Assembly (NCBI GenBank): GCA_019454045.1
Contig: SKCR01034808.1
Location: 1 to 64,000 of the forward strand
Direction of reading: 5' to 3'
Length of the DNA: 64,000 nucleotides
Source of the DNA: Zanthoxylum bungeanum
Lineage: Eukaryota > Streptophyta > Magnoliopsida > Sapindales > Rutaceae
The notes beneath the pieces were generated by a model. The model did no database searches. It was not told the origin of the DNA and saw nothing but the letters and a program-made list of their open reading frames with translations. Shown piece after piece: positions 32,312-62,378 of the stretch (the stretch's first letter is position 1; every line of letters starts with the position of its first letter). Made by a program: the position numbers and the translations under genes.

Positions 32312-32499
32312 CCATGAGGGTACAGGACCAAGAAGTGACATTCAATGTTTTCAAAGCCATGGAATTTTCAAAGCCATTCAGAACTCTGATGCAATGCAAA
32401 GTCCCACTGAAAAACTTAAAACATGTCATATGCATGTGGAGCCTGAATATAAAGAATGTTGCACACTGAAGAAGTTAAATCTTGATTTACAAGCAACTG

Positions 32500-32804
32500 A
32501 AGAGAAACGATTCCACCAACTCAACGAATTGGAGGAATTTCACATACAGCCTTTTGAGAATGCCAAACTGTATAAAGAAAAGGCAAAGAAGAGATATGAT
32601 GAGAAGTTAGTGCACATACAACTGGAACCGGGGCAGCATGTATTGTTCAGCAAATCAAGATTGAAACTCATCACTGGGAAGCTAAAATCAAGGTGGTCAG
32701 GTCCATTCTTAATCACCCAAATTTTACCAGATAGAACCGTTGAGTTACATGATCCCAACTCTAATAAAACATTCAAAGTTAAAAGCAAGTGTGTCAAGCA
32801 CTAA
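32500..32804 (+). pseudogene. Integrase C-terminal remnant (element A)
   Basis: Contains ENAKLYKEKAKKRYDEKLVH, EPGQHVLFSKSRLKL and the GPF/Y-like KSRWSGPFLITQILPDRTVE, ending at KCVKH and a stop. The protease-to-integrase junction is laid out as in element B, with no reverse transcriptase or RNase H between. Confidence 0.82.
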
Positions 32805-32980
32805 TGAGGAGAATCATTTGAGCGACAAAAAGAAAGTGTCACATTTTCAGATCAAGCCTAACGTTCGGGCAGTCATGTCTAGCTGACGACGTTAAACTTA
32901 GCGCTAGCAGTGAGGCAACCCATATAATTTGTGTATATATTCCGATTTGGTGTGTTTTATTTTGGTGTGTTTAATTTTGT

Positions 32981-35106: not shown

Positions 35107-38100
35107 AGTTATGATAAGTGCATGAAAGTGTACTTTGAACATCACTAATTCGGCTTGATTATTAAGTATTTGATCTTAATTATAGTTTATTTTACGTCTT
35201 GTTAATAGGAAGCAATGGAACATGAAGATTGAAGCAATTGTATATGTTTCGGGACCTTACAGACATATCGAAAGCACGCGGGAAGAGCAAAAACGACGAA
35301 AGTATTATTCCAGAAAAACTACCAGGCGTCGCGACGCCAGGAAGTGGGCGTCGCGACGCACCCTCAGACTACACACATAGAGAATGACCGAGAGTTGGGT
35401 GCCCCAACGCCACTTTTCGGCACCGCGGTGCCCCGATAAAGTTCCAGAATCTTAATTAGGTCATATTTTATCCGCATAAGGACTTCAGAACTTCCCTATA
35501 TATACCTAAGCTCGTCCAAAACCCTAAAAGAAGGAGAAAAATACATAAAAAAAGAGTTGAAGTCACATATTTGAGAGAGAATAACGAAAAACCACAAGCC
35601 ATACATGATGTCTCTCCGATTTATCCAGGTTGTATCTCTTTCTTCTATGGAGAACTAATCTCCTAGGCAAAGCTAATGATGAACTCTTGTATTAAGTTCT
35701 TATATTCATGTTTTTGATTCATGAATACTCTTCAACGTTTAATATAATTGATGATTTATTATTCTTTATACCTCTTGATTATGAACCTGAAGATTGTGTT
35801 TTACCAATTGGCATATAGAAAGTCATGATTCTTCTAGTGTGATTGAAAACCTAGTTCGGTTGGTTATGTTATTTTATTAGTTAATTTTCTGCTGCAAAAG
35901 TATTGCATGTGGGTATATTGTCGATGTTAATAGGTCCATAAACGATAACTAGTGTGTTTGTTTAACATAGAGAAAATAATGTAGGGGTTTTAGGGGCATA
36001 ATCCGGTAACGCAGCGGAAGCGGCGGAAGATCGTATCTTCCGATTTCAAACTTTTTTCTGGATTAATTAAATAAACATATTTATTTAATTGCCCAATAAT
36101 CAAATTATGAAATAAAATTCAAATGAATCATATTCAAGTGAATTTACCAATTACCCTTATATGGTATTTTGTCCATTTTAGTCCGAAATTGATCTAATCA
36201 ATTTTGAATGATTCTAAATCATTTCTAAGATGAACTTAGCATGTTCAAAACATCAAAAACCAAAGCAACCAAATCCCCAATTTTTGACCCTTGGCCGAAT
36301 GCACCATTTGGTGCCCATTTGTGCATTTGTCATTTCATGCTTCAAAACACATCAAGATGTAATCCAATGAACATGAAACTTTATATGCATCATATACACA
36401 TCCAAATACACAACATATATGAAAACCCCAAATTTGGAATTGGTCATGAACCCTAATTTTTCAATTTCTTCAAATTGGACAAATTAGACCAAATTGGTTA
36501 AATCAACTACTTCAATCATGTTTCTTCCATCCAATCAAAGTCTCAACACAATGAAACAACTCAAGATCAAATCTAGGTCATCTAAGAGTGGGTCAACAAC
36601 TCTAGATTAGCAACATGGTTTCCAAAACCTTAAAAGAAAGCTTATAACTACAATAGTCACAACACTTCCTTCATCATACATGCTCAACACTTCCATCAAA
36701 ACTTCCATCACAAAAACACAAGGAATAAAGAAAGAAATAACCTAAGAACATATGTTAAAGCCTAGATCCTAAGGAACATTTTCCTTTCTAATAGCAAGTT
36801 GGAAAACTCACTAAAATCCAAGCTTTCTTTGATTTCTTCTTTCTTTCTCTCACAAGCTTCCTTTGCTTCCATTAATGGAGTTTTTCTTTAAAGTGTATTA
36901 GGTTAAGAATGAAATGAAATGAAAAACAATATATACTTGCACAAAATTGCCTTGGCCGAATTTCACTAAGCAAATACAAGTTATTTTATTTCAATTTCAT
37001 TTCACTTTAATTTATCAACTTGAATAAATATCTAAAAACACTTTAAAGATATTAATATAAGTCAACAAATGCAACTAAGAAAATATAACTCTTATATATT
37101 TTAGGTCATGGCCGAATTAATCAAAAATAAAGGAAAAAGATATTTTAATTTTTCAAACAATTTTTGAACAAATATCTTAAGAAGTCAAAATCAATTTGAC
37201 AACCTTTTCCTTTAATGTAAAGTCAAACATTTACACTTATAATCATTTCCTAACTTTATCATTTGGTGATATATTTATATTTTAATTATATTAATCATTT
37301 AACAATTAAATAATTAAATAATTAATTAAATACAAATATATCAAATATATGTATTATATTTACTTTAAATATCTCAAATACATATATTGATGATATATGT
37401 CAAATACCTTTATTTGACTATTTATTAATGTGTATTTAATAATATCATATATTAAATACAAATACACATTAATTAGGAAATGACGGTTCGGCCCGTTCGC
37501 ATGTATTTTTCGTTTAACGATTAAACGATTTATAAATAATCATCATTATTCATAAATGTTGCTCTAGTGCTCTACGAGTATGTTTCATTATTGAGACTCT
37601 CTAGATTCAGGTATATCCGTCACGAAATCCAATTTCATGTCCATAATCTATCCACCCGTAGATTATGACGATCACGGATAAACTAGCTGAATCATACAGG
37701 TCGAGGTCATTGCATACGTATAATCCCTCCGTCACAGGTATCCAGATAATCCCAGAGATATAGATGTAAACGTCAAATCTCTATAGGTATTATCTCGTCG
37801 ACGTATCTATTAGCAATCTCTAAATAACACTCGGAACTTACTTCCGATGTATACTGTGGCCACAGATTTAACAGACTGCTAATAATATATGGACTACCTA
37901 TGCTCTGTACACAGAACTGACGGATCCTATCTTGACACACACAGGATATCCTGAGGATCGATCCACACCCAACGAACAGGCGGAGGTCTGATCTAAATAG
38001 ATCGGTGACGTGACTGCCATCTAAGTGTGGAGGATGTCTCATACATCCACAGTGGTGTCTCAAGTCGAAGGACCACTATGCTACTCAACCCGAGAAGATT

Positions 38101-38586
38101 CTTATTGACGTTGGCGTACCATCCATTAAGAATCTTCGGTGAGCCGTTCAGTGTTTATCCACTATAAACACCTACACGTCTATACGAGTCTCCATAGACT
38201 CATGGTTCATTGGGATAAACCATCGGACCAAGTCTCGATATACGACATGTACTGGTCTCAACGGATTTGACTAACCGACCCGTGTTAGCAAATCTTGACC
38301 AGGAACTATGTTTGATAATATACATATAGCAGTGACACTTCCCAATGTCAATTACAAACTAACTTTGTAACTGTGTACTGCATTATATATTATCGGGCCT
38401 TTGTCTAATATATACATATCACTAAACCACATTTAGTTTCAATCTAATCGTAATCAGATCGAATACGTATATAAGAACAAGAGGTGCAACCATAAATAAG
38501 TAATATTATGGAATAAGGGGATGTTCGTATTCATGAATCAGACATAAATACGGTCCGGATTGGCGCTCTGAGCACCAACCCCAACA

Positions 38587-38599
38587 ATTTCTCCCACTT
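38587..38599 (-). other. Polypurine tract of the LARD element
   Basis: On the - strand AAGTGGGAGAAAT directly precedes the 3' LTR. Confidence 0.75.
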
Positions 38600-43774: not shown

Positions 43775-46700
43775 TTTTGTAGGGGTTTTAGGGGCATAAT
43801 CCGGTAACGCAGCGGAAGCGGCGGAAGATCGTATCTTCCGATTTCAAAACTTTTTCTTGGATTAATTAAATAAACATATTTATTTAATTGCCCAATAATC
43901 AAATTATGAAACAAAATTTCAAATGAATCATATTCAAGCGAAATTACCAAATTACCCTTATATGGTATTTTGTCCATTTTAGTCCGAAATTGATCCAATC
44001 AATTTTGAATGATTCTAAATCATTTCTAAGATGAACTTAACATGTTCAAAACATCAAAACACCAAAGCAACCAAAATCCCCAATTTTTGACCCTAAGGCC
44101 GAATGCACCATTTGGTGCCCAAATTGACCATTTGGTCATTTCATGCTTCAAAACTCATCCAAATGAAATCCAATCAACATGAAACTTTGTATGCTTCATA
44201 TACACACCCAATGCTCAACATATATGAAAACCCCCAAATTTGGAATTGGTCATGAACCCTAATTTTCAATTTCTTCAAATTGGACAAATTAGACCAAATT
44301 GGTTAAATCAACTACTTCAATCATGTTTCTTCCATCCAATCAAAGTCTCAACACAATGAAACAACTCAAGATAAAATATAGGTCATCTAAGAGTGGGTCA
44401 ACAACTCTAGATTAGCAACATGGTTTCCAAAACCTTAAAAGAAAGCTTATAACTACAATAGTCACAACCTTCCTTCATCATACATGCACAACACTTCCAT
44501 CAAAACTTCCATCAACAAAAACACAAGGAATAAAGAAAGAAATAACCTAAGAACATCATATGTTAAAGCCTAGATCCTAAGGAACATTTTCCTTTCTAAT
44601 AGCAAGTTGGAAAAACTCACTAAAATCCAAGCTTTCTTTGATTTCTTCTTTCTTTCTCACAAGCTTCCTTTGCTTCCATTAATGGAGTTTTTCTTTAAAG
44701 TGTATTAGGTTAAGAATGAAAATGAAATGAAAAACAATATATACTTGCACAACAATTGCCTTGGCCGAATTTCACTTAGCCAAATGCAAGTTTATTAATT
44801 TCAATTTCATTTCACCTTTTATCTTATCAACTTTAATAAATATCTAAAACCTTTTAAAGACATTAATATAAAGTCAACAAATGCAACTAAGAAAATATAT
44901 CTCTTATATATTTTCAAGGTCATGGCCGAATTTAATCAAAAATAAAGGAGAAAGATATTTTAATTTTTCAAACAATTTTTGAACAAATATCTTAAGAAGT
45001 CAAAATCAATTTGACAACCTTTTCCTTTAATATAAAGTCAAACATTTACACTTATAATCATTTCCTAACTTTATCATTTGGTGATATATTTATATTTTAA
45101 TTATATTAATCATTTAACAATTAAATAATTAAATAATTAATTAAATACAAATATATCAAATATATGTATTATATTTACTTTAAATATCTCAAATACATAT
45201 ATTGATGATATATGTCAAATACCTTTATTTGACTATTTATTAATGTGTATTTAATAATATCATATATTAAATACAAATACACATTAATTAGGAAATGACG
45301 GTTCGGCCCGTTCGCATGTATTTTTCGTTTAACGATTAAACGATTTATAAATAATCATCATTATTCATAAATGTTGCTCTAGTGCTCTACGAGTATGTTT
45401 CATTATTGAGACTCTCTAGATTCAGGTATATCCGTCATGAAATCCAATTTCATGTACATAATCTATCCACCCGTAGATTATGACGATCACGGATAAACTA
45501 GCTGAATCATACAGGTCGAGGTCATTGCATACGTATAATCCCTCCGTCACAGGTATCCAGATAATCCCAGAGATATAGATGTAAACGTCAAATCTCTATA
45601 GGTATTATCTCGTCGACGTATCTATTAGCAATCTTTAAATAACACTCGGAACTTACTTCCGATGTATACTGTGGCCACAGATTTAACAGACTGCTAATAA
45701 TATATGGACTACCTATGCTCTGTACACAGAACTGACAGATCCTATCTTGACACACACAGGATATCCTGAGGATCGATCCACACCCAACGAACAGGCGGAG
45801 GTCTGATCTAAATAGATCGGTGACGTGACTGCCATCTAAGTGTGGAGGATGTCTCATACATCCACAGTGGTATCTCAAGTCGAAGGACCACTATGCTACT
45901 CAACCCGAGAAGATTCTTATTGACGTTGGCGTACCATCCATTAAGAATCTTCGGTGAGCCGTTCAATGTTTATCCACTATAAACACCTACACGTCTATAC
46001 GAGTCTCCATAGACTCATGGTTCATCGGGATAAACCATCGGACCAAGTCTCGATATACGACATGTACTGGTCTCAACGGATTTGACTAACCGACCCGTGT
46101 TAGCAAATCTTGACCAGGAACTATGTTTGATAATATTCATATAGCAGTGACACTTCCCAATGTCAATTACAAACTAACTTTGTAACTGTGTACTGCATTA
46201 TATATTATCGGGCCTTTGTCTAATATATACATATCACTAAACCACATTTAGTTTCAATCTAATCGTAATCAGATCGAATACGTATATAAGAATAAGAGGT
46301 GCAACCATAAATAACTAATATTATGGAATAAGGGGATGTTCGTATTCATGAATCATACATAAATACGGTCCGGATTGGCGCTCTGAGCACCAACCCCAAC
46401 AAATAATTCATCGATTACATTAGAATTTAATATGTTTTGATTGAAATATCTTCTGATTGTTGGTTTGGGAAGTGAAACCCTCAATTGAGTAATAAAAGGA
46501 ATCAATTACTGAATATAGGGATTTGATACAAGATGGATTCCTGATGCTTTGCTGCTTTTCTCTACTGATAACTTTTAAGTGTTTTTCATAATCTTTAATT
46601 TACATTACCAATTCAATCATTCTCTTTAATTAAGTTATTGCTAATGTTTCCATTAAGTGAATTAGTTCATTGTAACCATCTCTCTGAGGAATCAACACCC

Positions 46701-46871
46701 CAACTATAATGCGATAACCGCGAGTACTTTTTGGGCGTAATCAAGTTGTCATAATAGATTCTTCTATTCTGAATGTCCCCAGTCGACGACTAGGTTTGTC
46801 CATCCTTATCGTTGGGCCTTCAGTAGGTTTCATGAGAAGGGCCTTGAGGTACTTGGGTTTTTACTTATTAT

Positions 46872-49570
46872 TGTTAGGGTTGGTGCTCGAAGCGCCAATC
46901 CGGATCGTATTTATGTCCGATTCATGAATACGAGCAATATCATTTTCCATAATATTACTTAATTATGGTAGCACATATTGTCTTTTATTATGTATATTTG
47001 ATCTAATTCATTAGATTGAAACTAAATCGTGTTTAATGATATATATATTAGACAAAGACCCGATAATATATAATATAGTGTGCAATTACAACGTAGCTTG
47101 TAATTGACATTGGGAAGTGTTGCTACTCGAAATATATTATCAAATTAAGTTCATGGTCAAGATTTACTGACACGGGTTATTTAGTAAAATCCACTGAGAC
47201 CAGTACATGTCGTATATCGGACTTGGTCCGATGGTTTATCCCAATGAACCAGATAAACCATGAGTCTCGGGAGATTGTATAGACGTGTAGGTGTTTATTT
47301 GATAAATACTGAACGACTCACCGAAGATTACCTAATAGATGGTACACCAACGTCAATATGAATCTTCTTGGGTTGAGTAACATGGTGATTCTTTGACTTG
47401 AGATACCACTGTGGATATATGAGTTATCATCCATACTTAGATGGCAGTCACGTCACCGATCTATTAAGATCATACCTCCGTCTGTTCATTGGGTGTGGAC
47501 TCATGCTCATTATATCATGTGTGTATCAAGATAGGATCTGTCAGTCATGTGTACAGGGCATATGTGTCCATTATATGATTAGCAGTCTGTTAAATCCTTG
47601 GCCATTGTATACTTCGGAAGTAAGTTCCAAGTTTTATTTATAAGATTGCTAATAGATACGTCGACACGATTATACCTATAGAGATTTGGCGCTTATATCC
47701 ATATCTTTGGGATAATCTGGATACCTGTGACGGAGGGATTATACATATGCAATGACCTCGACCTGTATGATTCATAGAGTTTATCTGTGTTTGTCATAAT
47801 TTACAGGTGAGTGAATTATGGACACGAAATTTGATTAGTCTCACTAGTGAAATATACTCATAGAGCACTAGGACAACTGTTATGAATAATACTGATTATT
47901 TATAACTCGTTTAACGATTAAACGAAAGATACATGCAATCGGGACCCAATCGTCATTTTCGAAATTAATGTGTATTTGTATTTAATTCTTGATTTTATTA
48001 AATACACATTAATTAAATATCAAATTGTGATATTTAACATATATGATTGATATATGTATTTTGATTACTTAATGTAAATATAATACATATATTTAAGATA
48101 TTTGTATTTAATTATTTAATTATATAAATGTTATATGATTAAAATAATTAAAGTAACAAATATCTTAAGTCATGATTTATTTTTTAATGCTTGGAAATGA
48201 CATGAAATAATTGGCGACGCTTGTTGTTTTACTTTATATAAGATAAGTGTTATCTTTATTAACTAAAACTTGGACCAATGAAAATGAAACAAAATTGTAA
48301 ACTTTATTGTTTTTCCTTGTAACTTTCGGCCATGACAAGAAAATGCATATAAATTATTTTTGTTTCATTTTTCATTACAATTACAAGTTACACAAATATT
48401 TACAAAGTGAGTTGAGAGAAAAGGTGGAAGAAAGAAAGAAAACAAAGGCAAAAATCTTGGAAATTTTGTAAGTTTTTTATACTTTCTTCTACTTAGAAAA
48501 TATTTCTATTAATCTTAATTTCAATTTGTGTTGCTAAGTTGATGTCTCTACTCTTTTAGTTTGTAATTTAATGTGTTGGAAACTTATTTGAAGGTGTTTA
48601 GCATATATGATTAATTTATAAGCTTATTAGGAGTAATTAAGCTTATAAGATTAATTAGTAATCAAAATTGTCATTCTAGAGTTGCTTAGCAATTCATAAT
48701 TAACCTAGAATTGTTCTTGAGTTGTTTCATTATGGTGAGACTTGATTGGTGTGGTATTGGATTGATTAAAGTGTTGAATTAAATCAATTTAATGTAAATT
48801 GAGCAATTAGAGTAATTTTTAAAATTAGGGTTCTAAACCTAATCCAATTTTGGGGGTTTTCATATATGTGATGTAATTTGATGTATATATGATTTATATT
48901 AAATTTGGAATTGATTGGATTTGATCTTGATGTGTTTTGAACCAAAAAATGACCAAATTATAAATCCTGGAAAATATTGGGGTTGTTCGGCAATTCTGGA
49001 AAATAATGGATTTGTGTTGGAAATTGTATTTTCATGTATTAGACATGTATAAATCATTTTGGGATTGATTTGGAATCACTTAAATATGTATTTGACAATT
49101 TATGGACCAAAATGATCAAAATGTAAAGTTTATGGGTCTCATGATAATTAATGATAAATTTGATTTTTCAGATAAAAATTCAGTTTTTATTTATTAAGTA
49201 ATTAGAATAAATTGGTTTATTTTAATTGCCCAAGAAAAATATTTATCGGAAATTATTTCAGAGTGAAAATACGCGAAAATGGTGAAAAATGGCGTTACCG
49301 GGTAACGGCTACCCAAACAGTGAATTAGGCACTGTTCAGGCAGTCCACAAACTATCCAAATGTTTTGGGGAAGACCTGGGCAGTCCCCATGTGCATTGGT
49401 TGGTCGGTTCGGCCGGAAACGTGTTTGATGCAATTTTACGGAATAATATTTTCGCAAAAGTTTCGCAATGTTTCTATATTATTTATGTCGTTATATGATA
49501 TCGAATAAATATATTTAGGTGAAATATGAATGAATTATCAATAATGGATATTGAATAATTTATTCGTAAG
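46872..49570 (+). mobile_element. Diverged relative of the LARD LTR, + orientation
   Basis: Starts TGTTAGGGTTGGTGCTCGAA, parallel to the - strand start of the LARD LTR, and follows it for about 2.4 kb (sections around GACACGGGTTA, CACTGTGGATATATGAG and TTTAACGATTAAACGAAA). Flanked on the left by ATTAT. The right end is uncertain: the GCGTTACCGG block at about 49293 corresponds to the LTR terminus, but about 270 bp of other sequence follow. Confidence 0.65.
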
Positions 49571-50019
49571 CTTAAAAATTTTAAACTATGATTTCGTCCG
49601 AACCGCGCTCCATCTGCTGCACCTCCCTGATATGACCCCGACAGTTATCACGATAGCCCTAGTGAGAATTTCGAGGCGCCTTTAGGTGGGAGAATGAACC
49701 GCCAAAGAGATAAGTGAATATAAAGTGAGTTGGGAGGCTCATTTGCTTCATTCATCAAATATTTCCTCAAGCTTGCAAGTGTGAAAAGCTCTCAACTCGT
49801 TCTAAGGTACTGTTCAGCTTTTCTCTTCTCTCTGATTTCTTCAATTTGTTCGTATAGTAGATTTAAGTAGTTCTTGATCAATTAGGCAATTTGATCTTTA
49901 GGGCGGTAGTGAGGTTTCTGATATTATGTTTGAGAATTATGGTTGTTTGATCTTATAGGGTGTAGAAATTTTAAGGAATAACTGTTTGTTTGCTTTGAAT
50001 TTGTTGTTGCGTGAAGTAA

Positions 50020-50655
50020 ATGTCGAATGAGAGTTCCATGAGTTCTAGTGATAAACCCACAGAGATATATGTTGGACCACCTGATAGGGTTTCTAGATCT
50101 TCCAATGAGTCAGTTGGGGAGAAAGCCAATTTCGAGTGGTTGTAAGGATGTTCTGGTGATGGGATATTGACAATAGCTGAGTTGTCCCTAGGAGTGCCCA
50201 AGGACGTGAGGCCACTAAAGACCTTACTTGCAATGTGGGAGTCAAGTGGGACTCATATCACAAGCGAACCTACTAATATATTGACGAAGAACCCTGCTAG
50301 TCGAGTGACTAAGTAGATGATGATGGAGATAAAGTTGGTATATAGATTTCCTCCATCAATTAAGGTTAGGCTTGCTATGTCGAATGAGAGAATCGATTAC
50401 AAGATCCCATGATGAATGGGCTACTATGAAATGCCTTTTGAAGATGGGCTGAGATTCCATATGTCAAGGCTAACTTGGGAGGTGTTGAATTATTACGAGA
50501 TAACTCTCTCTCAGTTGAAGCTGAATACTTGGAGGGTATTATTATCGATTGAGTGTATGGTTTATGAGTTAGGGATCAGTTTTGGAGTCAGGGATATACT
50601 ATACATTTATTATTTAAAGGAACACTTATATGAGAAAGGGAGATACCACTTGTAT
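50020..50655 (+). pseudogene. Transposon-type ORF, N-terminal half (interrupted)
   Basis: A single reading frame from ATG at 50020 (MSNESSMSSSDKPTEIYVGP) carries four in-frame stops (TAA, TAG and two TGA), mostly explicable by single changes. It includes FEDGLRFHMSRLTWEVLNYY, SQLKLNTWRVLLSIECMVYE and GISFGVRDILYIYYLKEH. This layout resembles the plant 'putative gypsy type transposon' family (PF04195-like). Element B inserted at 50655, and the frame resumes at 60760. Confidence 0.6.
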
Positions 50656-50894
50656 TGATGAGTGGTATTTATATCACTTATTCTCACTCATTTAACCTAA
50701 TATTTTGTATAGTTTCTTGAGTTTTGTGAACGTTTTGATATGTTTTGTGTTATTTTGTAGATAAATAAAGTTTGGAAAGCATTGGAGGCAATTTGGGGCA
50801 AAAACGGACAAAAATGCGTCAACAGGGATATTTTGGTCTTTAGCGCGTCGCGACGCCCAGACTTCTGCGTCGCGACGTCTAAAATGCACCGAAC

Positions 50895-51345
50895 AGTGCT
50901 AACGTGCGCCGGGTCACAAATCAGAATCTGAGAAAAGTTTGACTTTGCTAAAATGCGCTGTGCCACGTGTCACCATCACAGTCATTGCTAACATGGCCGT
51001 GCCACGTGTCAGCATCTACGGTGCCGACACTCATCATCGCCACGTCGTGCCGTGCCACGTCAGTCCTCGTCCTCATCGCCACGTCGTCACGTCAACGCCA
51101 CAGTCGTCGTCCACACTCCATGTCATCAGCCATGTCAGCAAGTCAACAAGTCAAATTGTCACGTGTCGTGCACATCATCATCAGCCAATCAGGAAGCGAC
51201 ACGTGTCGCAATTTTATGGGCCGACAGTCTCTTTCCCACGTGTCGCCACGTCAGCGCCACGTCAGCATCAATTATTGGATATCCTATCCTTATCTGACAC
51301 GTGGCGGATAAGAATCTCAGCGACCAATCAGAAGCCGCCACGTGT
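50895..51345 (+). promoter_or_regulatory. G-box cluster in U3 of the 5' LTR
   Basis: Seven CACGTG hexamers, mostly as GCCACGTGTC or GACACGTGTC, plus many ACGT cores (CCACGTC) in about 450 bp, upstream of the TATA box. G-boxes bind bHLH and bZIP factors, including ABRE-binding factors (established knowledge). The same seven are present in the 3' LTR. Confidence 0.75.
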
Positions 51346-51474
51346 CACAATAATTGAAGCCCAACTACCGCTTCACATGTCACATTATCATCTTATCCAG
51401 AATCTTCAAACCAGCGAACCAGAGCGTGCCACGTCGACAAATCCGGCGTCGCGACGCTGGATCCTACCGAGGCC

Positions 51475-51480
51475 TATAAA
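51475..51480 (+). promoter_or_regulatory. TATA box of the 5' LTR
   Basis: GGCCTATAAATTGAGC is about 130 bp downstream of the last G-box and marks the likely U3/R boundary. The 3' LTR has the equivalent TATAAA at 59368-59373. Confidence 0.7.
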
Positions 51481-52868
51481 TTGAGCTCGAGATTTCAGAA
51501 TTCAGTGCACCACTCTCTCTCTTATAATCTTTCTAAAGAGAGAGTTTCTCTCTCTACTTTCTTTTAATTTTTAGTTTTTTAGTTTTTAGTTTTGTAATTA
51601 ATTTTAATTACATTTTGTTAATATAGTAATTTATTTTTACTTTTTACTTTTTACTTTTTACAGTTTTTATTATTTACCATGAGGAGGTAACTCCCCCAGC
51701 TAGGGTGAAAGGTAATTCTTTTACTGTTACTATTTAGATTAATCTCCCTTAAAAATAATATATTCACTATTTAAAATATTGACTTAAAAAGGATACCGCC
51801 AGATTGGTCGGTTGGTAATTCATTTTAATCTGATTTAAACCTGACTAATAAAGGATACCGCCAGATTGGTCGGTTGGTAATTTAATTTTGGTTCCGCCTT
51901 TATGGCTGGTTGGACTTAATTTGACTTAATCAGGTTACCGCCTATATGGCTGGTTGGAAAAAGAATCACAAGTTTATATATTATTTTATGGGAGATATCT
52001 AAATTAGTAGTAGTAAAAGTAATTCCTTTTACCTTAGCATTTTATTTTATTGTAATTTACTTTTCAGTATTTACTTTACCGCATTTTTACTTTATGTCTT
52101 TTATTTTCAAGTTTTTACTAGCCCTAGTTATGTGTTGTAACTAAATTAGTTATCTGGGGTTGTGATGAAATCCAATATCACCGTTTTATAAGGGTTAGAT
52201 TATAGCTTGGGTAATATAAAGATTTATTTATTGAGTCTTAAACTTAATGCTTTTTCATTAACTGGCCATTAATAAAATTGATCTGGTAAATCTAAAATGA
52301 ACTAGACATAGGGATTTTAGGTTTCAGCCTTAGACTCAATAGCCCACGATCTTCCTTGAGGATAGATAACCCTTTAATAGATTTCCTTACAGGATAGGAA
52401 TATACCTGTCGGGCGGGGGTAGCCATAATTGGAACTTAAACTTAATGAATCCAGATAATTTGGTTGACATAGACATATGATTCAATTGGGTTAAACTGGG
52501 TATTTGTGTCTGACCATCGACAGAGGCTTACACATAATTTAGTGTTCCAGGTTAATAAATCAATATATTACCCAACTTTAAGATAACCACTTCATCTTTA
52601 AAATGATATTGGAAGAAATCACAACCCTAGATAGTTTTTAATATTGAATTTTCTTAAAACCTATTTTCGACAATTTTATTTACTTGCTTTTAAATTTAGA
52701 ATCGTCACCATTTCAAATCAATTAATCAACTTGTTAGATATTAGTAATCATTTGACCTCATAAAATTAATAGTTTAGATATTAAGTCCTCGTGGGATCGA
52801 TATTTTTATACTACTTGAACGATACGTGCGCTTGCGTTATACGTGTGTGTTTACGCCGGTCAAGTTTT

Positions 52869-52886
52869 TGGCGCCGTTGCCGGGGA
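52869..52886 (+). other. Primer-binding site, tRNA-Asp type
   Basis: TGGCGCCGTTGCCGGGGA, six bases downstream of the 5' LTR, complementary to the 3' end expected of tRNA-Asp. Confidence 0.88.
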
Positions 52887-52969
52887 CTTATTTATCTTTT
52901 ACTATTAGTTTAGGGGTTAGATACGTTACTTGTATCTAATTTCTTTTTACTTATTGTTGTTGTTTTCTT

Positions 52970-54028
52970 GTGTTTCAGGTTCTCAGAAACTTCATGAGAC
53001 GAACCAGAAGCTTTGAACTCCGACCGCTTGACCCAGAAATTGAAAGAACCATCAGACAGTTGAGAAAGGAAAGGCGAGAAGGCCAAGAAGCTTTAGTCAA
53101 CATGGAACCTGAACCTTTGAACGTTGCACCACCAATTCCCATTCGAGACAGAACCATTCCGGTGGTTGACAGACTCATTTCCTGTATTGTACTTCCTCCC
53201 TTACCAGCAAATGCGTGTGACATCAAAACATGCATTCAGATGATTCAGCACTCAGTTCAGTTTGGGGGGAATGCAACTGAAGATCCTAATGCCCACATCA
53301 GCAACTTCCTGGAAGTTTGCGGCACTTTTAACTACAACAGAGCATCAGAAGAAGCAATGAGACTGCGAGTTTTTCCATATTCCCTGAAGGACAGAGCTAA
53401 AGCTTGGCTACATTCACTACCAGCAGGTTCTATCACAACTTGGAACACTTTAGCCACCAAATTTCTTGCAAAGTACTTTCCACCAGCCAGAACCGAAAAA
53501 TTGAGGAATGACATCACATCCTTTGTACAACAAGATTCAGAATCCCTCTGCGAAGCTTGGGAAAGGTACAAAGATTTACTCCGGAAATGTCCTCACCATG
53601 AGATTCCAAAGTGGCTACAAGTTCAGACCTTCTATAATGGACTTTCTGGAATAATGAGAACCACAATCGATGCTGCTGCTGGAGGAGCCTTGATGGCAAA
53701 AGGAGAAGATCAAGCCTGGGACCTAATCGAAGAAATGGCCAACAACAATTCCTTGTGGCCAACAGAAAGGAGCATGATCCAAAGAATTGCAGGAATTTAT
53801 GAAGTTGGAGCAAACACAGCAGTGAATACCAGGCTGGATCAGATATGCAAATGTCTAGAAACACTTAGCACGCAAGTTGTGAACATCACTGGATCCACAA
53901 GTTCACCATATGGAGGAGCACCAGAGTCAAACCAACTTGAAGAAACGGTGAATTATGTCAACAATTTCAACAGAGGGGAACAATCCATATTCCAACACCT
54001 ACAACCCAGGGTGGAGGAATCATCCTAA
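52970..54028 (+). pseudogene. Athila-like Gag (element B)
   Basis: Open for 352 codons. The first good Met candidates are at 52994 and 53102. The latter (MEPEPLNVAPP) is shared with element A. The core contains AHISNFLEVCGTFNYNRASE and LATKFLAKYFPPARTEKLRN. Near 53960-54000 the frame shifts: the continuation NNPYSNTYNPGWRNHPNLSW is in another frame, so Gag is broken. An acceptor-like TTTTCTTGTGTTTCAG precedes the frame. Confidence 0.87.
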
Positions 54029-54111
54029 TTTATCATGGAGCAACAATTCAGGCCAACAGCAGAACTATCCACCTGAATTCCAGCAACAGAACAAAGGCCA
54101 GGAGCAGGCAA

Positions 54112-54511
54112 ATGAATCAAGGAATAACAGAAGTGTTGACCTACTTGAAAAAGATGGAAGCAAAACACGACTCTCAAAGCAAAACAAGATATGATACTAT
54201 ATTTCAAAGCCATTCAGCCTCTATCAAAGCACTGGAGAATCAAATCGGACAACTGGCAAATGCTCAGAGTTACAGACCGCCAGGTACCCTTCCTAGCAAC
54301 ACAGAGCCAAATCCAAGAAACATGGGGAAGGAGCAATGTCATGCCATCATGTTAAAAAGCGGTACTGAAATCAACAAAGATGTTGGAGTCAAAACAGCTG
54401 TTGAGGAAGTTCCAAAAGAAACAAAGCAACAGATGAAGGAAAAAAGAAGCAAAGAAAAAAGAACAGATCACTCCACCTCCACCTTTTCCTCAACGTCTTC
54501 AGAAGAACAAA
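54112..54511 (+). pseudogene. Gag C-terminal region (element B), frameshifted
   Basis: Carries ALENQIGQLANAQSYRPPGT and CHAIMLKSGTE, the usual Athila segment between Gag and protease, in a different frame from both neighbours. Confidence 0.75.
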
Positions 54512-55087
54512 TTGGACAAGCAGTTTTCTCGGTTCCTGGAGATCTTCAAAAAGCTGCATATCAACATTCCATTTGCAGAAGCGTTGGAACAAATGCCCAC
54601 CTATGCCAAATTCATGAAAGATATTCTTTCACGAAAACGGAGATTGGGAGATTACGAGACAGTAGCATTAACAGAAGAATGCAGTGCCATCATTCAGAGG
54701 AAACTTCCCCCGAAGTTGAAAGATCCTGGCAGTTTCACTGTTCCTTGCGTCATAGGAGAACATAACTTTGGTAAGGCTTTGTGTGATTTAGGTGCTAGTG
54801 TTAACTTGATGCCTTTTTCTATTTTCAGGAAATTACAGATTGGAGAAACAATGCCAACTTCAGTCTCACTGCAACTTGCTGATAGAACGCTCGTATTTCC
54901 GAGAGGCGTAGTTGAGGATGTGCTGGTCAAGGTTGACAAATTCATTTTCCCAGCAGATTTTATTGTCCTTGATATGGAGGAAGACGCAGACGTGCCAATC
55001 ATCATTGGGAGACCATTCTTGGCTACAGGTCGAACCATTATTGATGTACAAAAAGGAGAATTAACCATGAGGGTACAGGACCAATAA
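54512..55087 (+). pseudogene. Athila-like aspartic protease (element B)
   Basis: A 191-codon frame with an upstream helical segment (INIPFAEALEQMPTYAKFMK), active-site DLGAS at residues 92-96, and DVPIIIGRPFLATGRTIIDV. Retropepsin fold, processing the polyprotein. The domain itself is intact, but it is out of frame with Gag, so production is doubtful. Confidence 0.87.
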
Positions 55088-55326
55088 GTAACATTCAATG
55101 TTTTCAAGGCCATGAATTTCCCAGATGATGAAAAGAAAGAGGAATGTTTCAAACTCGATGTGATACACAGTACCATTCAGAACTCTGATGAAAGACAAAG
55201 TTCTACTGACAAACTTAAAACATGTCAATTGCCTGTGGAGCCTAAAGATAAAGCGTCTTTTGTACTGAAGGAGCCAATTCTTGCATTACAAGCAACAGAA
55301 GAGAAAAAGTTCCACCACTCAACGAA

Positions 55327-55659
55327 TTGGAGGAATTTCACAATCAGCCTTTTGAGGATGCCAAATTGTACAAAGAAAAGGGCAAGAAAAGACATGATGA
55401 AAAGTTAGTGCGCATACAACTGGAACCAGGGCAGAAGGTACTGTTAAACAAATCAAGGGTGAAATTCTTCCCATGGAAGCCAAAATCACGGTGGTCAGGT
55501 CCATTTGTGATCACCAAAGTTTTACCAAATAGAGCCGTTGAGATACATGATCCTGATGCTAACAAAACTTTCAAGGTTAAAAACAAGCGTGTCAAGCACT
55601 ACTGGGGAGAATCATTTGAGCGACAAAAAGAAAGTGTTACACTTTCAGATCCAGCTTAA
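55327..55659 (+). pseudogene. Integrase C-terminal remnant (element B)
   Basis: Contains EDAKLYKEKGKKRHDEKLVR, EPGQKVLLNKSRVKF and KSRWSGPFVITKVLPNRAVE, the GPF/Y module that follows the integrase catalytic core. The zinc-binding and DD(E) core parts, RT and RNase H are missing. It is joined to the protease tail by a deletion shared with element A. Confidence 0.85.
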
Positions 55660-55797
55660 CGTTCGAGAAGCCAAGTCTGGCTGACGACTTTAAACTTAGC
55701 GCTCGCAGGGAGGCAACCCATGCAATTTGTGTATATATTGTGATTTGGTGTGTTTTATTTTTGTGTGTTTAATTTTTGCAGGATTAGTCATTTCAAG

Positions 55798-56262
55798 ATG
55801 GAAGAAGCTCTCGCAAATCTTCGCAAGCAATTTCCGTCTCTCCCTCAAAAATCTCTGATGAAAGTCTACAAAGCTCGCTTGGAACGGATGAGGTTATTGA
55901 CAATCCAAGGTATTCCTAATGATATTCGTTGGGTAATTGAAGCACGAGTCCGATTGGCAGGTGAGTCTTCTGACTCTTTTATTTCACATCTGTCTGGTTT
56001 GGAAGAAGCACCTATGCAAAGAAACGTAGAGCTAAACAATGGGTGTTTGTTTCAAATGTGCACGATTTATTGCAACACTCGTTGTCGTTCTTTAGGAATG
56101 GTGTCTGATAATCGCGAAGACAAAATTAAATTCATTAGGGATGGCTTGAGTAAGGAGTCTTTAGATGAAATATCTTCAACTCTTGAGACGCATCCCAGTG
56201 GATATGTTCACATAGCCATTCGTAAATTACATACACAATTCCAAAAGAAAGACAACTGTTAA
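55798..56262 (+). CDS. Unrecognised 155-aa ORF in the env-like position of element B
   Basis: Starts ATG at 55798 (MEEALANLRKQFPSLPQKSL) and ends TAA at 56260-56262. Hydrophilic, mostly helical-looking, with no signal peptide, membrane segment or known motif. The start is preceded by a TTTTTGCAG acceptor-like sequence at about 55773-55781, which would allow expression from a spliced subgenomic RNA as in other Athila elements. The frame is fully open although gag is broken, so it may have been retained. I do not recognise a homologue. It could be a capsid-like, envelope-like or captured fragment. Confidence 0.5.
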   Translation: MEEALANLRKQFPSLPQKSLMKVYKARLERMRLLTIQGIPNDIRWVIEARVRLAGESSDSFISHLSGLEEAPMQRNVELNNGCLFQMCTIYCNTRCRSLGMVSDNREDKIKFIRDGLSKESLDEISSTLETHPSGYVHIAIRKLHTQFQKKDNC

Positions 56263-56603
56263 GTCTCGGGAATCTGACTCAAAAAGACCCTGTTTGCCAA
56301 TTTATAAGAAAATTGGATGGGAAGCTTGTCCCTGACGCATAGACGTCAATCAAGCCGTTACTTTTCTTGTAAATATTATATCTCTTTGTCTTTTCTTAAT
56401 AATTGTGATTTGTTTTGTTGTTTTCTTTTATTTTCTCCGACAGGATCCAGATCTTTTGACTATCACGATCTATTACTATTTCGCTACTAATCGTCCTCTG
56501 GAAGATACTTGTGCTATTTTTACTCACCTTTTCAGGTACTATAAATTCAGCCCGTCATTGCACTTTTGAAGGCATCCCGAGTTGAGAAAGAAATACATAA
56601 AAA

Positions 56604-57256
56604 ATGGAAGCCACTTCAAGAAGACGAGTTGAAAACATCTGTGTGTTTTGCGGTAGTAGTGTTGGTACTAAACCACAATACGTAGAAGCAGCACAGAATT
56701 GGGTCGAGTCTTAGCTGCAAGGAATATGCACTTAATATATGGCGGAGGCAATCTCGGACTTATGGGGATCGTTTCAAAGGCTGTACAGGAAGGAGGCAGT
56801 CATGTTTTGGGAATCATCCCAAAACCCTTGGCAGAGGCAAATCTTATTGGATCATCAAACGGAGAGGAACTGATCGTGCCAGGTATGTCTGAACGACTGG
56901 TAGAAATGATTAACCGTGCTGATGCTTTTATCGCTTTGCCAGGTGGCTTGGGTACTTTGGAGGAAATTTTTATTGTATTATCTTGGGCGAACCTGAACAT
57001 ACACCAGAAACCACTTGGACTGTTTAATGTTGATGGATTTTATGATTTTCTTTGTGTGTTTCTTGATGATGCTCGGAGAAATGGGTTCGTGTCAAAACCT
57101 TTGAAAGAACTCCTCTTCACTGCCAGAACTGCTCCGGATCTAATAGACCAACTCATAGCCTATGAACCACAAGTTGACCCTATCCTTTCAAAGATAAATT
57201 GGTCCGAGGACGATCGTGGTAAGAGGCGTCGAATTAATCTGGATCTTAACCTTTAA
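56604..57256 (+). pseudogene. Captured cytokinin-activating LOG gene (intronless, one frameshift)
   Basis: LOG enzymes release free cytokinin bases from cytokinin riboside 5'-monophosphates in the cytosol. The copy starts ATG at 56604 (MEATSRRRVENICVFCGSSV), keeping the FCGSS motif. About 30 codons on, a single-base deletion near 56697 shifts the frame; the remainder is open from 56699 to TAA at 57254-57256. It includes YGGGNLGLMG, the catalytic PGGLGTLEE (56939-56965), KPLGLFNVDGFYDF and SKINW. Plant LOG genes have several introns and this has none, so it was captured as cDNA. In the MSERLVEM segment the usual RK pair is RL. The C-terminus ends KRRRINLDLNL, with a basic patch and an EAR-like LDLNL not expected in LOG. 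An internal start after the frameshift cannot be excluded but would lose FCGSS. Confidence 0.85.
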
Positions 57257-57316
57257 TTTCCTGTAGATTTTCAGCTAACCAGGTACGACCTTCTTAACTC
57301 TCCTTTTACTGTTTAA

Positions 57317-57357
57317 GACATTGGGGACAATGTCTCATTTAGGTTTGGGGGAGGGAA
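57317..57357 (+). other. Hairpin and internal polypurine-like tract
   Basis: GACATTG-GGGA-CAATGTC forms a 7-bp stem with a 4-base loop (57317-57334), followed by AGGTTTGGGGGAGGGAA (57341-57357). It resembles the true tract before the 3' LTR and the 3' noncoding region of Athila elements. It may be a second priming or termination signal. Confidence 0.55.
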
Positions 57358-57804
57358 TTAGTTGATTAGTACCTTGTTTTTTTTAGTTATGTGTTGTTTT
57401 ATTTTTAGTCCAAAATTTTTCGAAAAATACAAAAAATTGAAAAATTTTAAAAAAATTACAAAAATATTTTTGTGTTTTTGTGTTTTTATTTTTACTAAAA
57501 AAGTGAAATTGGTAAGAGATAGCTGAGTAAGGAGTTTCCATCCTGAGACGTATCTCAAGCCTATTTTCGAAACAAGTTAATTTTTGTTTATTTCATTTTG
57601 AATTATTTAATTTGTGAATTCTCCTTAAAACGGACTAAAATGGATCTTCATATGCTCAGTTGACAGGTATTATCAACATATATAGTAACATACGGACATG
57701 AGCTAAAATTGAAAAGTTTGTAATATTCAGTGCTCTAGTTTAATTGGAGGAAACATCTCAAAAAGCAGTGGAGTAAAAAAAAAAATTCTGATTTACAAAA
57801 ATAA

Positions 57805-58035
57805 AGTATCTAAGATCCGGGTTATTAAGTCTGTAAGGGTGTTTTAACACCTAGTGCCCTAAAACCAACTGGTTTGGGAGTCACTGGCCCAAAGCTCGTT
57901 ACATGGATCAAAGATGCTGCAAAAAATATATATATCTGAAGTCTGAGTAATTAAGTCCGTAGGGGTGTCTTAACACCTGGTGCCCTAAAGCCAACTGGTT
58001 TGGGAGTCACCGACCCAACACTCCTTACATAGATG
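57805..58035. repeat. Two-copy tandem repeat of about 125 bp
   Basis: The block AACTGGTTTGGGAGTCAC with flanking TAACACCTAGTGCCCTAAA occurs twice about 125 bp apart, with moderate divergence. Confidence 0.8.
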
Positions 58036-58585
58036 GAAGATATTGTATATAAATAAAAAATAGAAAAGTGAAAAAAATCAAAGAAAAAATCAGAAAATGA
58101 GAATAATATTCCATTGCTGCAAAAAGGTGTGAAATCTGATAGAACTTTAGGACAAAAATATTACTCTCTTATCAACTGCACTTATGACTGTTGTGGGCAA
58201 AAATGAGTTGATTAATATTTGTGGCTGTGTATATGAAGAATGGTAAAAATAATCGGAGAATTTACTTATTCAGTAATTTAAAATAAAACAAAACAACTAG
58301 TAACTTGGAGTAGAAGTTTCACTTGATTAGTCACTAACTTCTCTTTTCTCTTGTCTTTTTGCTTTTGTGTGCATTAGTTTTAACTAATTTTTTACTTTTG
58401 TAAAAACGTTTGTGGGTATCGTTGCTGTAAGCCCTCACGAGACTACAACTCGTCCACTAGGGACACCTAGGGGTTTAAAGGCTTGTTGCATATGCTAAAT
58501 GCAACCGTGATCCCTACGAAAGTGGCTTAGTTAATTTATTTATGTTATTTTACCTATGTTTTGCTCGAGGACTAGCAAAATGTTA

Positions 58586-58597
58586 GGTTTGGGGGTG
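58586..58597 (+). other. Polypurine tract of element B
   Basis: GGTTTGGGGGTG directly precedes the 3' LTR start TGATGAG. Confidence 0.8.
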
Positions 58598-60754
58598 TGA
58601 TGAGTGGTATTTATATCACTATTTCTCACTCATTTAACCTAATATTTTGTATAGTTTCTTGAGTTTTGTGAACGTTTTGATATGTTTTGTGTTATTTTGT
58701 AGATAAATAAAGTTTGGAAAGCATTGGAGGCAATTTGGGGCAAAAACGGACAAAAATGCGTCAACAGGGATATTTTGGTCTTTAGCGCGTCGCGACGCCC
58801 AGACTTCTGCGTCGCGACGTCTAAAATGCACCGAACAGTGCTAACGTGCGCCGGGTCCACAAATCAGAATCTGAGAAAAGTTTGACTTTGCTAAAATGCG
58901 CTGTGCCACGTGTCACCATCACAGTCGATCTGCTAACATGCGCCGTGCCACGTGTCAGCATCCTACGGTGCCGACAATCATCATCGCCACGTCGTCGCCA
59001 CATCACCGCCATGTCATCAGCCACGTCAGCAAGTCAACAAGTCAAATTGTCACGTGTCGTGCCACATCATCATCAGCCAATCAGGAAGCGACACGTGTCG
59101 CAATTCTATGCGGCCGACAGTCTCTTTCCCACGTGTCGCCACGTCACCGCCACGTCAGCATCAATTATTGGATATCATATCCTTATCTGACACGTGGCGG
59201 ATAAGAATCTCAGCGACCAATCAGAAGCCGCCACGTGTCACAATAATTGAAGCCCAACTACCGCTTCACATGTCACCTTATCATCTTATCCAGAATCTTC
59301 AAACCAGCGAACCAGAGCGTGCCACGTCGACAAATCCGGCGTCGCGACGCTGGATCCTACCGAGGCCTATAAAGAGCTCGAGATTTCAGAATTCAGTGCA
59401 CCACTCTCTCTCTTATAATCTTTCTAAAGAGAGAGTTTCTCTCTCTACTTTCTTTTAATTTTTAGTTTTTTAGTTTTTAGTTTTGTAATTAATTTTAATT
59501 ACATTTTGTTATATAGTAATTTAATTTTTACTTTTTACTTTTTACTTTTTACAGTTTTTATTATTTACCATGAGGAGGTAACTCCCCCAGCTAGGGTGAA
59601 AGGTAATTCATTTACTGTTACTATTTAGATTAATCTCCCTTAAAAATAATATATTCACTATTTAAAATATTGACTTAAAAAGGATACCGCCAGATTGGTT
59701 GGTTGGTAATTCATTTTAATCTGATTTAAACCTGACTAATAAAGGATACCGCCAGATTGGTCGGTTGGTAATTTAATTTTGGTTCCGCCTTTATGGCTGG
59801 TTGGACTTAATTTGACTTAATAAGGTTACCGCCTATATGGCTGGTTGAAAAAGAATCACAAGTTTATATATTATTTTATGGGAGATATCTAAATTAGTAG
59901 TAGTAAAAGTAATTCCTTTTACCTTAGCATTTTATTTTATTGTAATTTACTTTTCAGTATTTACTTTACCGCATTTTTACTTTATGTCTTTTATTTTCAA
60001 GTTTTTACTAGCCCTACTTATGTGTTGTAACTAAATTAGTTATCTGGGGTTGTGATGATGAAATCCAATATCACCGTTTTATAAGGGTTAGATTATAGTT
60101 TGGGTAATATAAAGATTTATTATTGAGTCTTAAACTTAATGCTTTTTCATTAACTGGCCATTAATAAAATTGATCTGGTAAATCTAAAATGAACTAGACA
60201 TAGGGATTTTAGGTTTCAGCCTTAGACTCAATAGCCCACGATCTTCCTTGAGGATATATAACCCTTTAATAGATTTCCTTACAAGATAGGAATATACCTG
60301 TCGGGCGGGGGTAGCCATAATTAGAACTTAAACTTAATGAATCCAGATAATTTGGTTGACATAGACATATGATTCAATTGGGTTAAACTGGGTATTTGTG
60401 TCTGACCATCGACAGAGGCTTACACATAATTTAGTGTTCCAGGTTAATAAATCAATATATTACCCAACTTTAAGATAACCACTTCATCTTTAAAATGATA
60501 TTGGAGGAAATCACAACCCTAGATAGTTTTTAATATTGAATTTTCTTAAAACCTATTTTCGACAATTTTATTTACTTGCTTTTAAATTTAGAATCGTCAC
60601 CATTTCAAATCAATCAATCAACTTGTTAGATATTAGTAATCATTTGACCTCATAAAATTAATAGTTTAGATATTAAGTCCTCGTGGGATCGATATTTTTA
60701 TACTACTTGAACGATACGTGCGCTTGCGTTATACGTGTGTGTTTACGCCGGTCA
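58598..60754 (+). repeat. 3' LTR of element B
   Basis: TG...CA bounded, 2157 bp, with the same seven G-boxes (about 58907-59242) and TATA box (59368-59373) as the 5' LTR, and shorter by about 50 bp. Confidence 0.92.
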
Positions 60755-60759
60755 TGTAT

Positions 60760-62378
60760 CTTCTCCAGAAGATGAAGCACTTGGTTCTAGGGCTTACTAC
60801 CAATGATCGAGGTGACTGGCAAAAATATTATTTATTTGTAAAAGGATGTTCAATGTTCGGGTCAGCTGGATCTGGTCGAATCCCCAAATTTTGGAACACG
60901 TCGAGTGAGTGTTTTACTTAGCCATTCATTTTTGTAATTTGTGTTTGATTTGCACTTATGTCTTTTTTTTGTAGGTTTTCGGCGTAACAGAACTTTTGAC
61001 ATGACCAACAATGTTGTTTCAAATATAAAATTAATCTTAAGCTTGCCCGCTCCTCAGAGGAACTAGAGATTCATTCTGGAAGAGCGTCGATTGAGACAAA
61101 CACCATGTGGAGATGAGTCTTGGATACTAAAGGTACTTCATTGGCCCTTCGTGAGCTTATTTTGGGCGTAGTGGTGGGCACTTGGTCGTGTCGATTTTTA
61201 TATTGACGACTTTTATTTTTAAAACCATTGACCTTCGAAGAAATCTTATGCGCAATAGAAGTAATGCGGGTCATATGAAACTTTATTCCATAGAGGTAAT
61301 TATGGCCAAGAGAAGAAATAAAAATGTTAAGAGGAATGAGATTGAGGTGGATCATGAACCCCACAAGTCGAAAGGAGTGGTTTCGTCTGGAACTTCTGTC
61401 GAAGCATCAAAGTTATCGACTGAGGTTGCTTTTCCATCAAAAAAGTGAAAGGTCGTAACTGATTTGGAAGAGGATTTGGAGAACGTCATTATCAAGATTC
61501 CTCATGGGACGACATCCATGTCTGATCCGTCCAGTATTACTAAGTTTGTTAAAGGGCTCTTGCTCGAAGAAGATGAAAATCGATTGACTGATCTCGACCC
61601 TCTGGAAGCAGTCAAAAGATTTGTGGCCCTTGCTTATTAGGTTAATATCTCCTATATCTTTTGCTTTTTTGAGTTTGTCGACTGGCTAATGTGTTTGTGT
61701 TTACAGGCTTTAGAATGCAACCTTTTCTAGGAAGATTACGTCAATTCGAGCCAAAGACGGACGTGGGATTTGGATAAATCCAACACAACAATGAGGAAAG
61801 AGAATGATGAATTGAAGGCGATGCTTGAAGCTTCTGAGAAAAGAGCAAAAAAGACTGATATTGAGATTATGGCTACCCAAACGACTCTGAAGGCGGAGAG
61901 AGAGACACTGAATGCCCAGATTGAAGCCTACAAGGAGGGGATGGAGAGTTTAAAGGGGGAAAAGAATTATCTGGTTGACCAACTGGAAGTGGTTGCCTAT
62001 GAGGCAATGGTGAATGAGAGAAGCAATCTTATGAGGCAGTATCTTGATGGGGAGCATGTCGCCTGGACTCTCATGAAGTGGATCAAGATGCAAGAGAAGA
62101 TGAAACTTAGGATTTCCTCGTCGACTGAGGGGGAGGATAGAGAAGAAGATGCCTCTAAAAGAGGCGAAAAGGTCGATGCCTCTGAAAGAAATGTAGCCGA
62201 GGGTGAGGCCACTGAGATTGAGGAGAGTTCTAGTCGATTGGGAGAAGAGATTCTAATTCCATTGGTGGATCCAATCGCTGAGACACCGCATGCTCCGGTT
62301 TATGATGATATCAACAATGCTTCTATTGGTGATGTTCTTGTCGCTGATGTTCCAACTGATTTAGATCTTGTAGACTGA
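60760..62378 (+). pseudogene. Transposon-type ORF, C-terminal half (interrupted)
   Basis: Continues the 50020-50655 frame directly (CTTCTCCAGAAGATG after the TSD), giving LLQKMKHLVLGLTTNDRGDW and GCSMFGSAGSGRIPKFWNTS. A donor TCGA-GTGAGTG near 60905 and an acceptor TTTTTTTGTAG near 60974 fit a short intron, so the ORF had introns. The C-terminal part (61770-62378) is a coiled-coil-rich, acidic 202-codon frame (MRKENDELKAMLEASEKRAK; EGEDREEDASKRGEKVDASE) ending DVPTDLDLVD. Stops and frame changes between the parts show decay. Confidence 0.55.

Follow-up and report, generated by a model that had tools for sequence, protein, structure and literature searches.

The window, by which is meant the whole 64,000-nucleotide stretch of Zanthoxylum bungeanum DNA analysed here, contains a pol-deleted copy of a plant Ty3/gypsy-type retrotransposon family with two sense genes ahead of its 3' LTR. 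The second of these genes encodes a protein of the LOG fold, in a family with replaced pocket residues and an added C-terminal tail, and the first belongs to a family resembling the Viral_NABP and Carla_C4 proteins of plant RNA viruses. The reading that we favour, and hold with about even confidence, is that of a pol-deleted Ty3/gypsy-type element in which a LOG-fold enzyme and a carlavirus-type nucleic-acid-binding protein would raise the permissiveness of the host.

Structure and age of the element

The element is bounded by a 5' LTR at 50656-52862 (TGATGAG...GGTCA) and a 3' LTR at 58598-60754 (TGATGAG to GGTCA), both on the plus strand and pairing with each other, and the target-site duplication TGTAT lies directly outside them, with its left copy at 50651-50655 and its right copy at 60755-60759. 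The features expected of an LTR retrotransposon, namely two LTRs, a target-site duplication and gag, are all present. The primer-binding-site region, TGGCGCCGTTGCCGGGGA, which we take to be of the tRNA-Asp type, directly follows the 5' LTR (52863-52888, plus strand), and the polypurine-tract region (58582-58597, plus strand) directly precedes the 3' LTR; a tRNA scan of 50000-61000 found no tRNA. The LOG gene, at 56604-57256, falls between the two LTRs, and the initial annotation was right both in placing it between matching LTRs with a 5-bp duplication outside and in assigning it to the mobile element rather than to an adjoining host gene.

The two LTRs differ by 20 substitutions over 2149 aligned sites (K2P 0.0094) and by 17 gap events. 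With a yearly rate of 0.7 to 1.3e-8 substitutions per site, the insertion would date back a few hundred thousand years. With 17 gap events per 20 substitutions the pair is rich in indels, some of which may be assembly errors. For the copy C17567 the LTR comparison is partly confounded by adjacent sequence.

Between the LTRs, a gag reading frame at 52940-54028 (PF03732 Retrotrans_gag, E 4.7e-24) is followed by a protease-like region at 54437-55087, frame-shifted relative to gag and matching PF13650 under its curated cut-off (E 0.0062), and then directly by the C-terminal end of an integrase at 55252-55659, all on the plus strand. The element is incomplete, and no RT, RNase H or integrase core was found in it between the protease-like region and the integrase end. 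The latter has no Pfam match by itself; it aligns at 77% to the end of the integrase of a minus-strand element at the host locus L142, in which an integrase core (rve, E 4.6e-16) lies upstream of the same 3' region. The initial label 'Athila-like' would have to be judged by RT, which the element lacks. Of seven ORFs of the window that were scanned, none matched Athila ORF-1 (PF03078), a frame that just 16% of Athila elements possess (PMC6317226).

A related element (element A) at 28193-34013 of the plus strand has the same pol deletion and aligns at 81% over 4220 columns to 51623-55776, and neither a LOG match nor a partner-gene match was found in it. The host copy L143 aligns through the same deletion junction with 98.6% identity. 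Because the junction is common to element A and L143, the deletion is older than the insertion in the window, and from a shared old deletion it would follow that the lineage moved with borrowed enzymes.

Other arrangements were seen among the host copies. The minus-strand element of L142, which L108 resembles as judged by eye from a three-frame translation, has incomplete copies of both the LOG and the partner gene. The plus strand of L142 carries a gag-less type, made up of an LTR, a gag leader cut down to its first 89 bases, sequence of another kind and then LOG, without the partner; the sequence proper to this type is present in 16 of the 40 loci examined (in L137 as 53 bases only), and at L142 8063-9350 it includes a 185-aa frame for which Pfam gives no convincing match. 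LOG is common to the pol-deleted elements, the gag-less type and the type with an integrase core.

Elsewhere in the window, 35980-38587 and 43778-46402 form a 2.6-kb direct duplication of 97% identity, the second copy of which faces an inverted arm of about 82% identity at 46867-48163, and 17860-18890 consists of repeats, 18-30 bases long and strongly rich in C (GC skew -0.56), like a minus-strand glycine-rich protein gene.

The LOG gene of the window

The LOG-fold gene at 56604-57256 (plus strand) matches PF03641 with E 1.3e-35 and 122.9 bits (curated cut-off 27), TIGR00730 with 140.5 bits (cut-off 96.35) and AtLOG3 (2a33) with E 1.7e-51. Profile searches do find LOG similarity here, and its presence inside an LTR element is far beyond chance; all 43 rows of the LOG-family alignment A1 match the profile of the fold family. 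The score against the NCBIfam equivalog NF058542 is 101.2 for a cut-off of 300, under which the AtLOG3-type protein P0121 also falls, with 132.4.

The gene has one frame disruption, near its N-terminal end. Residues 1-31, including FCGSS, are encoded at 56604-56696 and residues 29-217 at 56687-57253, and because these two parts differ in frame the window copy is without a single LOG reading frame. The motifs on which the LOG assignment had been based are real as homology, although FCGSS lies in another frame than the rest, and what had been described as a gene for cytokinin activation is, in this copy, probably not a working one. No intron interrupts the LOG segment, as originally stated. The single gene proposed across 55798-57256 proved to be two, since LOG starts at 56604 and 55798-56339 belongs to another gene family. 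Both genes being disrupted, the window copy is probably no source of either protein. That the disrupted copies might form a single inherited subfamily was considered and rejected, since their lesions are found at several different positions and copies of this kind were favoured by the query.

Copies in the host genome and origin of the family

In the host assembly (3.96 Gb, 51709 contigs) the LOG query gave at least 150 matches out of 67584 first-look candidates, all of those listed being 94-100% identical and intact copies being among them. Vitis LOG1 gave at least 150 matches out of 57892 candidates, at 47-50% identity, and a 61-residue piece of AtLOG3 at least 150 out of 42034, at 57-64%. 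Since the first two of these lists share only about 20 places, as judged by eye, the host probably holds several hundred copies. LOG was also met in other copies of the element. A parental host LOG was not among the listed matches to Vitis LOG1 or the AtLOG3 piece, where the element family would hide exon-sized matches.

A tree of LOG copies, which had been proposed as a check, was built in wider form, with 82 rows and a midpoint root: 31 bacterial LOGs hand-picked from 80 loci, 14 plant LOGs and 37 family members, the last being 35 rows (window included) and 2 from Xanthoceras; AtLOG8 is in the tree and was also used in a comparison of structures, which likewise points to the LOG fold. Supports were 100/99 for the bacterial group, 99/99 for the plant group and 100/97 for the family, the bootstrap being still not fully settled, and the family is a clade of its own next to the plant LOGs. 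It seems to have arisen from plant LOGs once and long ago; the tree is compatible with one ancient capture of such a gene, and the lack of introns fits an RNA-mediated origin in the distant past. Capture by the window element itself, as the initial annotation supposed, finds no support, given an intronless state that is family-wide, the number of host matches, the strongly supported clade and the presence of LOG in pol-deleted elements, in the gag-less type and next to an integrase core. For this sampling a bacterial origin is disfavoured, the bacterial LOGs grouping apart. That the gene is a host gene adjoining the element, or a bacterial gene insertion, is extremely improbable for the same reason, and also because LOG lies between LTRs with a matching target-site duplication and recurs in other element copies.

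Populus proteins named 'LOGL10' (P0047, P0055, P0084) belong to the same family as the window LOG, so that LOG annotation may include transposon genes.

Tests for selection on the two genes

Copies were picked by the non-coding sequence 57300-58000, with 40 of 2524 candidates scored and 30 loci cut, and the 29 loci other than the window formed the selection sample; a locus holding under 60% of a gene was excluded for that gene, which removed 3 loci in the case of LOG and 18 in that of the partner. Of the 29 loci, 26 have LOG, and it is open in just 5 of these 26. Its pairwise dN/dS is 0.219 in its own frame, against 0.741 and 1.913 in the other two (without the outlier L148, 0.192 against 0.638 and 2.037), and changes relative to the copy L121 number 205, 91 and 468 at codon positions 1, 2 and 3. 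In the non-coding tail, read as a control in three arbitrary frames, dN/dS is 0.815, 0.724 and 0.431 and the position counts are 177, 215 and 215. With looser gap costs LOG has dN/dS 0.163 relative to L121 and 0.224 pairwise. These values come from copy pairs, which are not independent, and a low value reflects the source lineages; LOG has clearly been constrained in the lineages behind the sampled copies. The indel-rich LTR pair means that some frame breaks may be assembly errors; against this, indel events per kb in the sample are 3.2 in LOG and 4.5 in the partner gene vs 14.3 in the non-coding tail.

The partner gene is missing in 18 of the 29 loci. In the other 11 its dN/dS is 0.407, with 0.762 and 1.032 in the other frames, and 0.331 relative to L121 and 0.376 pairwise under looser gap costs. 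Because the lowest tail frame reaches 0.431, the value of 0.407 is not clear by itself; it is the codon-position counts of 51, 44 and 100, rather than dN/dS alone, that suggest purifying selection.

A first LOG estimate of 0.044, from 21 intact copies, was set aside, since protein score had determined the ranking of its loci. That score-ranked and therefore biased sample gave the partner a dN/dS of 0.253 relative to L121 (21 copies), and in it LOG constraint is common to element types with and without the partner.

These data bear on the possibility that LOG is a passenger, derived from a pol-bearing master and amplified without function, with the low dN/dS recording only the past of that master. 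The persistence of LOG in the pol-deleted and gag-less types, the 5 open copies out of 26 and the disruption of the window copy would all be expected of a passenger. We nevertheless consider it improbable, given the strong constraint in a sample chosen by flanking DNA and controlled by other frames and the tail, the constraint shared by types with and without the partner (in the biased sample), and the open frames and conserved tails of relatives that are 50-90% identical. A constrained master would also leave the rewired pocket described below unexplained, unless the master had some function.

Catalytic residues and substrate pocket

Residues of the LOG active site have been described for the Corynebacterium enzyme CgLOG (PMC4979012). 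In that account catalysis is ascribed, as a proposal, to Arg99 and Glu122, and the adenine site consists of Met96, Lys100 and Glu121; Met96, His97, Lys100, Glu125 and Trp129 make up a putative prenyl site, the residues of which are identical in AtLOG3, OsLOG and CpLOG (PMC4979012). Alanine changes at AMP-binding or catalytic residues of CgLOG, S19A excepted, nearly removed activity (PMC4979012).

The corresponding positions were compared in 93 relatives of the element LOG, which are the proteins of 195-260 aa among the best 120 of 2868 matches, taken on similarity and length alone, and in 113 canonical proteins of the LOG1/LOG3 type, which are those of 195-260 aa among the best 120 matches to the AtLOG3 fragment. 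The PGGxGTxxE motif with its catalytic Glu, and also the catalytic Arg, are largely kept in the relatives (Glu and Thr in 93/93, Arg in 85/93), as they are in the sampled host copies (Glu and Thr in 26/26, Arg in 25/26), and the Trp129 equivalent is found in 91 of the 93. The equivalents of His97, Lys100 and Glu125 occur in 18, 5 and 5 of the 93 relatives, all three together in 5, vs each in 113/113 of the LOG1/LOG3-type proteins; in the host copies the three positions hold Ser, Leu and Ile, each in 25 of 26. The canonical pocket is kept by P0039, P0041, P0042, P0057 and P0102, and three of these (P0039, P0057, P0102) branch at the base of the family in the tree.

The cytokinin activation named in the initial annotation would require a pocket that has mostly been replaced at the proposed adenine- and prenyl-site positions, and 'cytokinin-activating' is a doubtful and unsafe label for the element LOG. 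A mobile LOG of that kind would turn cytokinin ribotides into active cytokinins and so favour dividing cells and its own transmission. The LOG fold, the PGGxGTxxE motif with its catalytic Glu and mostly its Arg, and the canonical pocket of the five basal relatives speak for such an enzyme. With the pocket set lost in most relatives and all but universal Ser, Leu and Ile in the host, and with the near-abolition of CgLOG activity by alanine changes at AMP-binding residues (PMC4979012), it appears unlikely. The retained catalytic residues indicate that the element protein probably still cleaves something.

C-terminal tail

The LOG coding sequence ends in a tail, GKRRRINLDLNL, at 57218-57253 (plus strand), with a basic cluster and an LxLxL motif, which we take to be a nuclear signal and an EAR motif, respectively. 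A basic cluster within the last 25 residues is found in 88 of the 93 relatives vs 1 of the 113 canonical proteins, and LxLxL at the C-terminal end in 75/93 vs 0/113; shuffled C-terminal 26-mers contain LxLxL in 5.1% of cases, vs the 80.6% observed. Four of the five relatives with a canonical pocket have the basic cluster and lack LxLxL, which suggests a stepwise growth of the tail. Relatives at 50-90% identity have open frames together with conserved tails, and among the host copies constraint on the tail is similar to that on the remainder of the protein (0.041 vs 0.042-0.060 nonsynonymous changes per codon).

A nuclear adaptor that is no longer an enzyme, its LOG fold sensing a nucleotide or dimerising and its LxLxL tail recruiting co-repressors, would accord with the conserved basic cluster and LxLxL, with the changed pocket residues and with the loss of Arg in 8 of the 93 relatives. 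It seems quite unlikely in view of the catalytic Glu and Arg kept by the host copies and of a tail that is no more constrained than the rest.

The partner gene

The partner gene, of a Viral_NABP/Carla_C4-like family according to family matches, lies at 55798-56339 (plus strand) and is frame-disrupted in the window, both in its basic/cysteine region and close to its end. The family has 229 matches (120 listed), mostly of 182 aa. Of 35 aligned rows, 33 match Carla_C4 (PF01623; E up to 0.01, best 1.5e-8) and 31 match Viral_NABP (PF05515; E up to 0.01, best 1.1e-8); the matches are modest, with a best E near 1e-8, and extend over about 85 residues around the basic and cysteine cluster. The curated cut-offs of both profiles are passed by P0241, P0312 and the host copy L121, and the profile search gave no Viral_NABP or Carla_C4 match for the window copy itself. 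A structure model of the family has pLDDT 59.9, too poor for a structure search. The LOG relative P0111 and the partner relative P0272 come from JGI contigs of equal length (4511), which is suggestive of one contig.

The partner resembles the Viral_NABP/Carla_C4 proteins of carlaviruses and their allies in its profile matches and its basic and cysteine cluster, and differs from them in being about 182 aa long, encoded by a retrotransposon and known from sequence only. A role as silencing suppressors has been described for the cysteine-rich proteins of these viruses, p12 of chrysanthemum virus B being described as a transcription factor inducing hyperplasia and as a suppressor of weak effect (PMC12172455). 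Searches of viral contigs with P0001 and A2 as queries confirmed no relative, and A1 gave 21 loci, one with 38% identity over residues 9-203 and the others partial or weak.

Possible promoter and splice sites

Seven CACGTG boxes lie at 50964-51344 of the 5' LTR (plus strand), likely in the upstream part of a promoter, and seven more at 58907-59237 of the 3' LTR, so that 14 of the 15 CACGTG sites of the window are in the two LTRs; a TATA-like site is found downstream of the boxes, at 59368 in the 3' LTR. A promoter driven by bZIP or bHLH factors is possible. The internal region has four acceptor-like sites, where local shuffles give 0.66 +- 0.77 and the opposite strand has 1; of the four, the first is near the start of gag (52978), the second in the protease region (54828) and the last two are before LOG (56443 and 56535). 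Upstream of the partner gene, TTTTTGCAG, ending at 55781, is acceptor-like by eye and failed the scan rule. A spliced message for each gene is a guess.

A possible mechanism and its relation to known elements

According to the favoured reading, the LTR with its CACGTG cluster would drive transcripts, maybe spliced to each gene. The LOG-fold protein would enter the nucleus and still cleave a nucleoside 5'-monophosphate, probably one other than the usual precursor of cytokinin, and it has a tail that may contact co-repressors of the TOPLESS type. The partner protein would bind nucleic acid and may weaken silencing, and the two together would make host cells more permissive, as accessory genes of plant viruses do, in an element lineage that would have moved using borrowed enzymes. 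A more specific proposal, which is offered tentatively, is that LOG could process nucleotides in the nucleus, acting on a new substrate and bearing a tail that recruits co-repressors, and could form with the viral-type partner a host-manipulation cassette of benefit to the element, and that the enzyme would outlast the loss of gag, pol and partner.

The combination of LOG with an LTR element is not the novelty for which it was first taken, being already in print for Citrus and Populus: a LOG/YgdH domain is reported in Ty3/gypsy consensus sequences of Citrus sinensis and C. clementina and, without the count filter, in that of Populus trichocarpa, in an account that cites Steinbauerova et al. 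2011 (PMC9289625). Those elements have the same LOG-type domain, for which the passages in question give domain presence only; the present analysis adds the pocket change, the tail, the viral-type partner, the selection and the element types lacking pol or gag. Searches of the PMC open-access literature found no earlier report of the changed pocket, the tail or the viral-type partner. A broad survey of extra frames used those of at least 250 codons (PMC6317226), as described there, and such a survey would pass over both genes because they have 182 and 217 codons. Gypsy elements of Phalaenopsis with an AlkB-type RNA demethylase likewise carry a host-type enzyme as a fixed extra gene; it is a different enzyme, shown to be active in vitro (PMC9289625). 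Compared with canonical AtLOG3 (2a33) and AtLOG8 (1ydh), the element family has the His97/Lys100/Glu125 set replaced in 88 of 93 relatives, an extra tail that is basic and bears LxLxL, no introns and a retrotransposon as carrier.

Most accessory genes found in plant LTR elements still lack an explanation. In the present case, purifying selection can be measured within a single genome on one such gene, for an enzyme of a hormone pathway whose pocket is altered and to which a tail has been added, and the gene next to it matches a protein family of plant RNA viruses with members described as silencing suppressors. Surveys of 'LOGL10-like' genes may be counting transposon genes, and it becomes possible to test in which direction exchange between flexiviruses and retrotransposons went. 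Should either gene function in the host, retrotransposons would be equipped with tools like those of viruses.
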